64,000 nt of DNA from Chloroflexota bacterium (GTDB taxonomy: Bacteria > Chloroflexota > Dehalococcoidia > Tepidiformales > Tepidiformaceae), in contig JAPPBY010000017.1 in the NCBI GenBank assembly GCA_026702615.1, positions 62,001 to 126,000 of the forward strand, read 5' to 3'. Numbering within the stretch: position 1 is the stretch's first letter; each line of letters opens with the position of its first letter. The position numbers and the translations under genes are program-made. This document shows, one piece after another, positions 8,689 through 12,527 of this stretch. Below the pieces are notes generated by a model. The model worked only from the letters and a program-made list of their open reading frames with translations. It did no database searches and had not been told where the DNA came from.

Positions 8689-9204
8689 TCAGGATTCGCT
8701 CTCTCTCAGGGAGGCCAGGGCTGCCCATCGGGGATCGCTGGCCACGGGTTCACAGGCGCATTCGCCGGTGTTTCTGTCGATTCCGCAGCTCGGGCAGAAG
8801 CCCTGGCAGTCGGCGCTGCAGAGCGGCTGCATGGGAGCAGCCGCTTCACAATACTGCCGCACACCTTCCGTAATGTCGATCAGGTGGCTGCGGGAGATCG
8901 AGAAGGCTTCGGGGTCGCTGTCGTCGTCCTCGAGGCGGGTACCGCTGGCCACGTCGTAACGCTGCTCGTACACCTCGTCGAAGGAGATGGCGGTGGGGAT
9001 GGCGACGGGCGAGAGACAGCGCGAGCACTCGGCATCGAGGGTGATCTCGAGGGAGGCACGCACGAGGGCGCCGGCGCCGATGCGCACAAGCTCGACCCTG
9101 CCGCCGGTGACCGCGCCGGACGGCGGCAGCTCGTGGATGCGGGAGGCGCCGGGGCCGTCGGCGAGGAGCTGGGAGGCGTTGAAGGCGAGGGTCTGGAATT
9201 CCAT
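8689..9204 (-). CDS. DUF177 (YceD-like) protein
   Basis: Upstream of rpmF as usual; CSRCLSP and CxxDCQGFCPSCGIDRNTGEC motif; ATG at 9204. Confidence 0.88.
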   Translation of the reverse strand: MEFQTLAFNASQLLADGPGASRIHELPPSGAVTGGRVELVRIGAGALVRASLEITLDAECSRCLSPVAIPTAISFDEVYEQRYDVASGTRLEDDDSDPEAFSISRSHLIDITEGVRQYCEAAAPMQPLCSADCQGFCPSCGIDRNTGECACEPVASDPRWAALASLRESES

Positions 9205-9377
9205 GCCGGCCCTCCTGCGCGCCGAGGAACGGCGGCACGAATCAGTATAGCGCCGGGGTGGTCGCGCCCCGAGGAACATAAGCGTGCGGGGGCCAGACAG
9301 ATTCCCCGGGGAGGGTCGAAACGCCGTTTACTGGCCACCCGGCGCCGCCTACGCTTGTCGCTAGGGTTAGCCTCCGA

Positions 9378-10079
9378 ATGCCACAGGTCGCAGACCTCGC
9401 CTCACTCCAGGAATACGACGACACCCTTGTTGGATTGACCGCCGAGCTGGAGGAGGCGCGAACGGACCTCGAAGACGACGAAGCGTTGCAGGCCGCGCAG
9501 ACCGCCGCCACCGAGGCGGACGACCATTGCGCATCCCTGGAACGCGAGCAGCGCCGGTTGGAAGGCGAGATCGACGGCCTCGTGGCGAAAGTCGAGCGTG
9601 AGGAGAAGCGTCTCTACGACGGCTCCGTCAAGCTGCCGAAGGAGCTGGAGGGCATCCAGCAGGAAGTCGCCTCGCTGAGGTCCCGCCTTTCCGACGTCGA
9701 GGACACCGAGCTGGCACTGCTCGACAGGCTGGAGGAGGCGGAGGGGGCACGCGATTCCGCACGGGACGCGCTGGCGCGGGAGGAGGCGGCCTCGAAGGAA
9801 AAGCAGGAGCGCCTCGGGGGTGAAATTGCAGGGCTGGAGGGCCGGATCGAGGCGACGACCGGGGAGCGGGACACGTGCAAGGAGCGGCTGACGGCCACCC
9901 TGGTGGCGCAATACGAGGACCTGCGGCGGCGGAAGGGGGGCGTGGCGGTAACCCACCTGCGGGCGGGGGCCTGCACAGGTTGTCGCATAAGCGTGCCGCC
10001 CTCGGCGCGCAAGCGCGCGCTCGACCCGGAAGCGCCGGCGCTCTGTCCCAACTGCGAACGAATCCTGGTGGGGTACTAG
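9378..10079 (+). CDS. Coiled-coil protein with C-terminal C4-type zinc ribbon
   Basis: Heptad-rich helices; C-terminal CTGCRISVP...LCPNCERILV. Confidence 0.85.
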   Translation: MPQVADLASLQEYDDTLVGLTAELEEARTDLEDDEALQAAQTAATEADDHCASLEREQRRLEGEIDGLVAKVEREEKRLYDGSVKLPKELEGIQQEVASLRSRLSDVEDTELALLDRLEEAEGARDSARDALAREEAASKEKQERLGGEIAGLEGRIEATTGERDTCKERLTATLVAQYEDLRRRKGGVAVTHLRAGACTGCRISVPPSARKRALDPEAPALCPNCERILVGY

Positions 10080-10083
10080 GGCG

Positions 10084-11499
10084 ATGAAGGCGATCGGGTA
10101 CTTCGTCGAGGGAGCGCAGGTGGACGGAGCGGAGCGTTCGCTAAGCCAGCAGACTGAGCGGTTCCTGGCTTTCTGCCAGGAGCACGGGTACCAGGTGGCG
10201 GCGACGTTCGTCGACACAAAGGATGCGGAGGAGGCTGACAGCGGCTTCCGCCAGATGCTCAACTTCATCGAGCGAGGCGACCACGGGTTCGTGGTGGCGG
10301 TGGTAGAAGGGCTGGGCGCGCTGGGAAGCGATCTCGGGCGGGCGGCGCTCAAGATGTTGACGATCGAGGCGGCGGGGGCAACGGTGTACGAGGCTGGGAG
10401 CGGGGAGGAGGCGGCCCGGTCGATCGTGGAGCAGTGGGGCGGACGGACAGCGCGGGCTCCAGTCTCGGAGCGGGTGCGGGCGGCGATGCGGCGGCGGGCG
10501 GTACGCGGCGAGGCGCTGGGGCGGCCTCCCTACGGCTACTGCGTGGGGGCGAAGCGGCGGCTGGAGATCGTCCCGGACGAGGCGGTGGTCGTGCAGTACA
10601 TCTTCCGGCTCTACCTGGAGGAGGGGCTGGGCATCCGGCGCATCGCGGGGCGGCTGAACGAGGAGGACATCCCCACGCGCCGGGGTGGGCGCTGGAGCAT
10701 GGTGAGCGTGCGCGACATCCTGCGGAACCGGGCCTACCTGGGGACGTACTCACGCTTCGGCGTGCGCATCCCGGACAGCCACCGCGCTCTTGTGAGTCCC
10801 TCGGACTTCCGCAAGGTGCAGGAGAACATGGCAAAGCGCCGGCGGGGGGGCACGGGGCGATCGCTGCAGCCGTTCCTGCTCAGCGGGCTGGTGTTCTGCG
10901 GGCGCTGCGACAACCGCATGATCGGGGTGAGCCGCCGCCAGCAGTGGACGACTCGAGCCGGCGAGGAACGCAAGGCCACCTACCGCTACTACCAGTGCGA
11001 GAGCCGCACCAACCAGAACACGTGCTCCTACAACACGCAGCGGGAGGCGGAGTTGGAGGCCCGCGTGCGTGAGCTGCTGGCGGAGCCGAGCGGAGCCGCT
11101 GCGCGCCTCCAGCGCGCTGGCGGAGCCGACGCCTACGCCGAGGAGATCGCGGGCGAGATCGAGCGCATCGAGGGGCGGTTGCGGCAGAACCGGCGGCAGG
11201 TGGAGGCGCTCGTGGGGGAGGCGGCGAGCGGGCAGCTCCCGGTGGAGCGCATGAAAGCGATCGGAGCGGGCCTCGCGAAGGACCAGCGCGAGCTGGAGCG
11301 GGAGGTGGAGGAGGCAAAGGCCCGTCTCGCGGCCGAGCGCTCCGAGGCGGAGCGGGAGGAACAGGCGGAGGCAACGTGCAAGCGACTACTAACGCGCTGG
11401 GACGACTTCAACCTTGAGGAGCGGCAGGGCCTCCTGCGCGAGGTGATCGACCGGATCGAGGTCGACGGCGACGAGGCGCGCCTGCTGAGGCGGCACTGA
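10084..11499 (+). CDS. Serine recombinase-fold protein (resolvase, recombinase and zinc ribbon domains) with apparently degenerate catalytic site
   Basis: GRPPYGYCVG and recombinase domain, CGRCDNRM...YYQCESR zinc ribbon, coiled-coil tail; N-terminal YFVEG replaces YARVS. Confidence 0.85.
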   Translation: MKAIGYFVEGAQVDGAERSLSQQTERFLAFCQEHGYQVAATFVDTKDAEEADSGFRQMLNFIERGDHGFVVAVVEGLGALGSDLGRAALKMLTIEAAGATVYEAGSGEEAARSIVEQWGGRTARAPVSERVRAAMRRRAVRGEALGRPPYGYCVGAKRRLEIVPDEAVVVQYIFRLYLEEGLGIRRIAGRLNEEDIPTRRGGRWSMVSVRDILRNRAYLGTYSRFGVRIPDSHRALVSPSDFRKVQENMAKRRRGGTGRSLQPFLLSGLVFCGRCDNRMIGVSRRQQWTTRAGEERKATYRYYQCESRTNQNTCSYNTQREAELEARVRELLAEPSGAAARLQRAGGADAYAEEIAGEIERIEGRLRQNRRQVEALVGEAASGQLPVERMKAIGAGLAKDQRELEREVEEAKARLAAERSEAEREEQAEATCKRLLTRWDDFNLEERQGLLREVIDRIEVDGDEARLLRRH

Positions 11500-11903
11500 T
11501 GCGCCTTGTCGTGTATGCCGACGGCGCGAGCCGCGGCAATCCCGGGCCCGCCGCTATCGGCGCGAGCGTGCAGAGCGCCGCCGGCGACGAGCTGACATCG
11601 GTCAGCGAGACCATCGGGCGGACGACGAACAACGTGGCGGAGTACCGGGCCGCCATCGCGGGCGTGCGCGCGGCGCACGACCTGGGGGCGACGAGCATCG
11701 ACCTGCGGCTCGACAGCGAGCTGATCGTAAAGCAGCTGGCGGGACGGTACCGGGTGAAGAACGCGGCGCTGCGCCCCCTGTTCGCGGCGCTGGTGGAGGC
11801 GCTGGAGGCGGTGGGGCCGTACACGGTGGGGCACGTTCCGCGGGCGAAGAACAAGCGCGCGGACGCCCTGGCGAACGAGGCGCTGGACCGGGCTCGTCGC
11901 TAG
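11499..11903 (+). CDS. RNase HI family protein
   Basis: YADGASRGNPGPAAIG, NNVAEYRA, DSELIVKQLAGRYRVKN, RADALANEA; TGATG overlap with upstream gene. Confidence 0.92.
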   Translation: MRLVVYADGASRGNPGPAAIGASVQSAAGDELTSVSETIGRTTNNVAEYRAAIAGVRAAHDLGATSIDLRLDSELIVKQLAGRYRVKNAALRPLFAALVEALEAVGPYTVGHVPRAKNKRADALANEALDRARR

Positions 11904-11942: not shown

Positions 11943-12313
11943 GATCAGTGGGCCGGGCGATCGCGCCGGGACGTTCGCGTCTCGGTGAGGAAAGTCCGGA
12001 CTCCGCCGGGCAAGGGTGCCAGGTAACGCCTGGGCGGCGCGAGCCGACGGAAAGTGCAACAGAAACATACCGCCCGCAGTGCTGCGGGTAAGGGTGAAAT
12101 GGTGCGGTAAGAGCGCACCGGTGTCCTGGAGACAGGGCAGCCGTGCAAACCCCACCCGGAGCAAGGCCGAATAGGGGAGAAGGGCGCCCGGCCCGTTCGA
12201 ACTCCCGGGTAGGCCGCGTGAGCGTCGCAGCGATGGGGCGCCCAGATAGATGATCGCCGCCATCCGGCCGACCCACCGGAGGGCACAGAATCCGGCTTAC
12301 AGGCCCGCTGATC
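11943..12313 (+). ncRNA. rnpB: RNase P RNA (bacterial class A)
   Basis: GAGGAAAGTCCGGACTCC, ACAGAAACATACCGCC, GGTAAGGGTGAAA..GTGCGGTAAGAGCGCACC, AGATAGATGAT, ACAGAATCCGGCTTACAG; P1 pairing gatcagtgggcc/ggcccgctgatc. Confidence 0.97.
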
Positions 12314-12527
12314 ACCTTCCCAATTGGCCCCGCCCGGAGGGCGGCGAGTGGCCTCGCTGGAGCGTCTCTCTGACGGGCCAGAACGGGGCTCTCGATTTGA
12401 CACCATGAAGCGCCCGGCGTACAACCAAATCGGTTTGCGCCGCGATTCACAATCCCCGACGGAACGCGGTCTCGAGGGCATTCGGGACACGACAGAGAAC
12501 AGGGTGAGGCGAGCAAGAGGAGGCGAG

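Follow-up and report, generated by a model that had tools for sequence, protein, structure and literature searches.

What keeps a gene for a protein built like a large serine recombinase (LSR) in the middle of a housekeeping gene cluster when that protein has lost its active site? We address this question for REC, a 471-aa open reading frame in a 64,000-nucleotide window (the whole stretch of DNA analyzed) from a bacterium of the class Dehalococcoidia. The first-pass annotation of this DNA had described a serine-recombinase-fold protein with a dismantled active site and had suggested its domestication as a DNA- or RNA-binding protein. The description is confirmed by Pfam matches, by structure prediction and comparison (AF2, Foldseek), and by alignment with 11 LSRs. 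REC is a domesticated mobile-element protein: its copies share the catalytic loss, a single origin, vertical descent, and a mostly fixed locus, they are under purifying selection with the strongest constraint on the DNA-binding domains, and catalysis was lost before the class diversified. The explanation we favor, at a probability of roughly 0.7, is one ancient domestication of an LSR into a non-catalytic, sequence-specific DNA-binding protein whose role is independent of its neighbors; the DNA target and the physiological role are what we infer.

Exaptation of a mobile-element enzyme after catalytic loss is already known in principle, for example in TldR. In the open-licence literature, searches on LSRs that are dead or domesticated, and on serine recombinases in Dehalococcoidia, found nothing relevant; no class-wide, locus-fixed, dead LSR turned up there, which is no proof that none has been described. 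The domesticated recombinases that we found described keep their chemistry, whereas REC gave it up before diversification of the class and has remained in a housekeeping locus ever since. Its genes are likely annotated automatically as "recombinase family protein" and mistaken for markers of prophages or islands. The REC family apparently has a single, fixed binding head where mobile integrases differ in specificity, and it gives a natural setting in which recognition of DNA by an LSR can be tested apart from recombination.

The REC operon

REC runs from an ATG at 10084 to a TGA stop at 11497-11499 in the list of open reading frames of the window. It belongs to a tight same-strand array of COG1579, REC, and RNase HI genes, followed by rnpB (Table 1). 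The gap between the COG1579 stop codon and the REC start is 4 nt, and the REC stop and the RNase HI ATG overlap by 1 nt.

Table 1. Coordinates of REC, its domains, and its neighbors in the window
Feature	Position	Strand	Evidence
Divergent gene, presumably DUF177 (YceD) from its type of sequence, with fabD beyond; conserved left border of the locus	8689..9279	-	ORF; locus comparison
Operon promoter region: GTTTAC 9326-9331, TACGCT 9350-9355, GCTAGGGTTAGCC 9360-9372	9326..9372	+	Conserved in family f1
COG1579 / CT398-like coiled-coil zinc-ribbon gene, upstream partner of REC	9378..10079	+	PF24481, 1.8e-22
REC, catalytically dead LSR homologue, 471 aa	10084..11499	+	ORF; PF07508, PF13408; AF2/Foldseek
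Degraded resolvase-fold N-domain (predicted), residues 1-122; V8, G10, D52, A79, S82 replacing R8, S10, R45, R68, R71	10084..10449	+	Alignment; AF2 fold; PF00239 in relatives
C-terminal half of alphaE (predicted split helix) and recombinase DNA-binding domain, residues 123-255	10450..10848	+	PF07508; AF2; highest conservation
Zinc ribbon, residues 263-335, C272/C275/C305/C314; extended hairpin (R284, W288) family-specific	10870..11088	+	PF13408; Cys conservation; AF2
Coiled-coil hairpin inside zinc domain, residues ~348-418	11125..11337	+	AF2 helices H348-381 and H387-418
RNase HI gene (rnhA)	11499..11903	+	PF13456/PF00075
rnpB, RNase P RNA class A	11945..12315	+	RF00010, 289 bits

Fold and domain architecture

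The features that tie REC to LSRs in fold and descent are a Recombinase domain, a 4-Cys zinc ribbon, and a coiled coil. The first matches PF07508 (5.6e-21; 75.2 bits against a cut-off of 21.1), a domain found in 30/30 members of A1, and the second matches Zn_ribbon_recom, PF13408 (2e-11). Together with the helices predicted over H348-418, these matches bear out the earlier statement that the 3 parts are intact. The N-domain is less easily recognized. A Pfam search with the window protein gave no match to PF00239 (Resolvase), but orthologues match this model over the same N-terminal region (L034, 2.3e-15; L086, 5.7e-11; L088, 9.6e-9), which marks the N-domain in the window as a degraded resolvase domain. 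AF2 models residues 1-120 confidently (pLDDT mostly 75-93), and Foldseek with the REC model retrieves the integrase N-domain 3bvp (TMt 0.62) as well as full-length LSRs (9y66, 9dxh, Bxb1, PhiC31, 4kis). On these models and on the orthologue matches, a resolvase-fold N-domain is predicted to be present in REC. The helix that links the N-domain to the DNA-binding part, alphaE, is predicted to be split (H110-121, a low-confidence stretch at 122-126, and H127-140); for a control LSR from the same genome, AF2 predicts a single 34-residue helix, H120-153, in a region where the control model is itself of low confidence.

Loss of the active site

In the window protein all 5 key catalytic residues are replaced (R8 to V, S10 to G, R45 to D, R68 to A, and R71 to S). 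Positions 8/10/45/68/71 thus read V-G-D-A-S, against R-S-R-R-R in 11/11 ordinary LSRs of the alignment; D67 is gone as well. The alignment upholds the 2 substitutions first noticed in the YARVS motif, catalytic Ser to Gly and Arg to Val, and corrects the rest of the picture. The LDRLGR motif had been paired with VEGLGA: the loss of R68 and R71 stands, but the true counterpart lies 3 residues downstream, at L77-G-A-L-G-S82, where the hydrophobic/glycine frame LxxLG alone is kept. The GFR arginine, which had been called intact, is R56 and is not catalytic; the catalytic R45 pairs with the R of "DRP" in LSRs and corresponds to D52 in the window protein, and so is lost too.

The substitutions are common to the orthologues. 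The complete set R8-S10-R45-R68-R71 occurs in 0/75 of them, against 11/11 LSRs, and Ser is missing from catalytic position 10 in 71/75. R8 alone survives in 24 of the 75, where it is a relic. Neither the AF2 model, the alignment, nor the Foldseek matches place another Ser/Arg set at the active site.

Distribution and descent

A search profile built from 30 REC orthologues was run at a threshold of E<=1e-45 against 393 genomes of the Dehalococcoidia class. It matched in 192 of these genomes and in 107 of 226 genera, with one strong full-length match per genome except where genes are split over contigs. Among 301 genomes sampled across the phylum, those outside the class gave no strong homologue: none of their scores exceeded ~192 bits, the level of the LSR background. 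Close relatives with named records are MAGs of Dehalococcoidia or Chloroflexi. Several of the genomes with REC are assembled in a single contig (G005, G020, G179), and binning error therefore cannot explain the distribution. Viral contigs, phages, and plasmids yielded no relative above the ordinary LSR background, and no mobile relative stands closer than that background.

In a tree with LSRs, the REC copies group together as one clade (support 100/99). Distances between them track those of rpoB (Mantel r 0.83; 0/5000 permutations). Carriers sit on most deep branches of the rpoB tree, and non-carriers largely form one nested group that includes f14, with f4, f19, f9, and one f15 genome in addition. 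The simplest reading of this tree, which leaves the root of the class open, is that REC was probably gained early and lost later. One locus departs from the pattern: L117 (G350), in a genome classed as f2, is of genus g1 type and resembles L008, with the same REC start and a near-equal score. It is possibly a mis-binned contig or a misplaced genome.

Genomic context across the class

Most REC copies occupy one locus, COG1579 - REC - (rnhA) - rnpB. Its left border (divergent fabD, DUF177) and COG1579 are conserved in most families tested, and COG1579 is the same-strand upstream neighbor of REC in 69/75 loci, at a median gap of 4 nt. REC-less genomes display an "empty" site, in which COG1579 is directly followed by rnhA and/or rnpB; the simplest reading is therefore that REC was inserted into a pre-existing cluster. 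This housekeeping locus is fixed in most families, and by this context and by the searches of viral contigs, phages, and plasmids REC shows no linkage to mobile elements.

None of the neighbors is indispensable. REC is retained with no rnpB within 5 kb in 6 loci (L031, L033, L037, L049, L097, L113), it is retained where rnhA is absent, and it is retained without an adjoining COG1579 in family f2 and in L038. Since lineages that miss each of these genes nearby still keep REC, its role is independent of adjacent rnpB, rnhA, and COG1579, and a dependence on any of them was rejected.

A housekeeping structured RNA is often encoded downstream of REC: rnpB or, in L095 and L112, a large SRP RNA just past the gene, in the usual place of rnpB. 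In L104, rnpB starts at the REC stop codon (6378), and therefore either a promoter lies inside REC or rnpB is cut from the operon transcript.

Selection and conservation by domain

Every domain of REC is under purifying selection, the domains having a dN/dS of about 0.06-0.29. Estimated within genus by NG86, the ratio is lowest in the zinc ribbon (about 0.06) and the recombinase domain (about 0.09), and higher in the N-domain (about 0.15-0.19) and at the coiled-coil end (about 0.27). Mean column conservation over the orthologues is 0.49 for the N-domain, 0.71 for the recombinase domain, 0.68 for the zinc domain, and 0.41 for the coiled coil, the least conserved of the 4. The zinc-ribbon cysteines are kept in 95-100% of orthologues; in a few lineages a single one of them, or a large part of the N-domain, is gone. 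With a shared catalytic loss, a mostly shared locus, and purifying selection, the suggestion of domestication is borne out.

Eight residues (R185, R210, R284, W288, R308, N310, Y316, and T318) are near-invariant in the REC family and not in the LSRs compared. Some of these REC-specific positions fall in an extension of the zinc hairpin, missing from most LSRs compared; the hairpin strands are modeled by AF2 at 278-289 and 295-305. In LI integrase the zinc hairpin engages the DNA major groove, with a contact by Tyr297 (PMC3783163), and REC Y300 pairs with this residue in the alignment. The recombinase-domain contacts of LI integrase, Tyr207/Asn208, have no reliable placement on REC. The pattern of conservation in the DNA-binding domains suggests a single conserved binding specificity.

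What REC is kept for

In the history that we propose, the LSR gene of a mobile element would have been taken up in a single event early in the history of Dehalococcoidia, at a site between COG1579 and rnhA/rnpB, and would have become part of their operon. REC would then have lost all nucleophile and phosphate-activating residues and, if the model is right, an intact alphaE; with these gone it could no longer cut and rejoin DNA. REC has retained its recombinase domain, zinc ribbon, and coiled coil, and would bind one conserved DNA sequence or structure non-catalytically; its most likely role would be to regulate transcription or a chromosomal site. Most likely it is kept mainly for its DNA-binding part. 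The choice between a DNA- and an RNA-binding protein, left open by the first-pass annotation, is tilted toward DNA by the conservation, which is highest in the recombinase and zinc domains that contact DNA; protein contacts may matter too, since the N-domain and the coiled coil are also under purifying selection. More tentatively, and at clearly less than even odds, REC may belong to the core DNA-binding proteins of the whole class and have a single conserved target. It would then either regulate a housekeeping operon or sit as a guard on an ancestral attachment site, keeping out new elements that carry serine integrases. If true, either role would be a non-catalytic use of an LSR not found in the open-licence literature.

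The neighbors of REC suggest 2 other functions, which we consider about equally unlikely. REC could be an RNA-binding protein that serves RNase P RNA (or SRP RNA) and binds structured RNA through its recombinase domain and zinc ribbon. In many families rnpB comes right after REC or after the pair REC-rnhA, in L104 it starts at the REC stop, and in 2 loci SRP RNA takes that place; these positions agree with such a role. However, rnpB has the same place in REC-less genomes, so its adjacency is probably older than REC, several lineages keep REC with no rnpB within 5 kb, and REC genomes contain rnpA. Replacement of the RNase P protein by REC was rejected, as rnpA is found in the window genome and in 52/60 genomes searched. 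REC could also act mainly through protein contacts with COG1579, as a scaffold or partner, with its DNA-binding domains kept secondarily. COG1579 is indeed its most constant neighbor, but family f2 and L038 keep REC without it alongside, and conservation peaks in the DNA-binding domains rather than in the coiled coil.

Two further explanations have very little probability. The eroded active site and the shortened or diverged copies of a few lineages (L038, L107, L115) would suit a decaying, non-functional relic of an integrated element, a notion opposed by open REC frames in well over a hundred species across class-wide divergence, by purifying selection in every domain, and by retention in the divergent f15 lineage. 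It is just as hard to credit that REC remains active in recombination, whether through a different residue or with a partner recombinase acting in trans. The window genome does encode LSRs with intact active sites (L040-L043); against this stand the loss of S10 and 4 catalytic arginines from the window protein, the predicted split of alphaE, and the fixed locus.

Promoter elements and possible autoregulation

Within family f1, the operon promoter consists of GTTTAC, an 18-nt spacer, and TACGCT; next comes GYTRSGGTTAGSC, a sequence that the genome contains only once. In the window, GCTAGGGTTAGCC lies just past the -10 of the COG1579-REC operon; it is conserved across the family and has a single genomic occurrence. 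This element (9360-9372) may be an operator, and REC possibly autoregulates the COG1579-REC promoter. The promoters of other families and of REC-less loci lack GYTRSGGTTAGSC. Other families carry conserved promoter elements of their own, such as TCTATAATCC...TTGTCCA in f59 and a different one again in f21. A class-wide REC operator is unsupported, as the f1 motif is confined to f1 promoters and the f59 and f21 elements differ; the comparison of promoter motifs across families identified no REC binding site.

Relation to known recombinases

REC has the domain order of LSRs and serine integrases (A118/LI Int, SPbeta Int, Bxb1, PhiC31), namely a resolvase fold, alphaE, a recombinase domain, and a zinc ribbon with an embedded coiled coil, and it matches them over their full length in structure comparison. 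It differs in lacking all 5 catalytic residues tested, in the predicted split of alphaE, in an extended zinc hairpin with family-specific residues, and in its fixed chromosomal locus and vertical descent. Its PHROG match is "integrase." The best named NCBIfam models for its C-terminal two thirds are those of XisF and the Ccr cassette recombinases (NF041201, NF047343, NF047344, NF047347), but REC does not come near their curated cut-offs (it scores 75 bits, where XisF requires 375), and the XisF/Ccr enzymes are catalytic.

TldR descends from TnpB. TldR proteins are RNA-guided transcription factors and, like REC, mobile-element enzymes that lost catalysis and kept nucleic-acid targeting (PMC13418256). 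The likeness is one of analogy only: TldR is an unrelated protein, RNA-guided and phage-borne, whereas REC is chromosomal and class-wide. Hin and Xer, as treated in parts of a review (PMC8987985), are mobile-element recombinases recruited by the cell, as is REC, and unlike REC they retain catalysis; those parts of the review describe no dead LSR.

Divergent copies

Two copies stand out by their sequence. In L115 (G084), from the divergent f15 lineage, a strongly diverged REC lies between COG1579 and rnpB, and at least 1 zinc cysteine is apparently replaced. In L038 (4815-6167; G041, family f7), REC has an eroded N-domain and is followed, away from COG1579, by a putative metallophosphoesterase gene; this copy suggests that the DNA-binding half may be sufficient.
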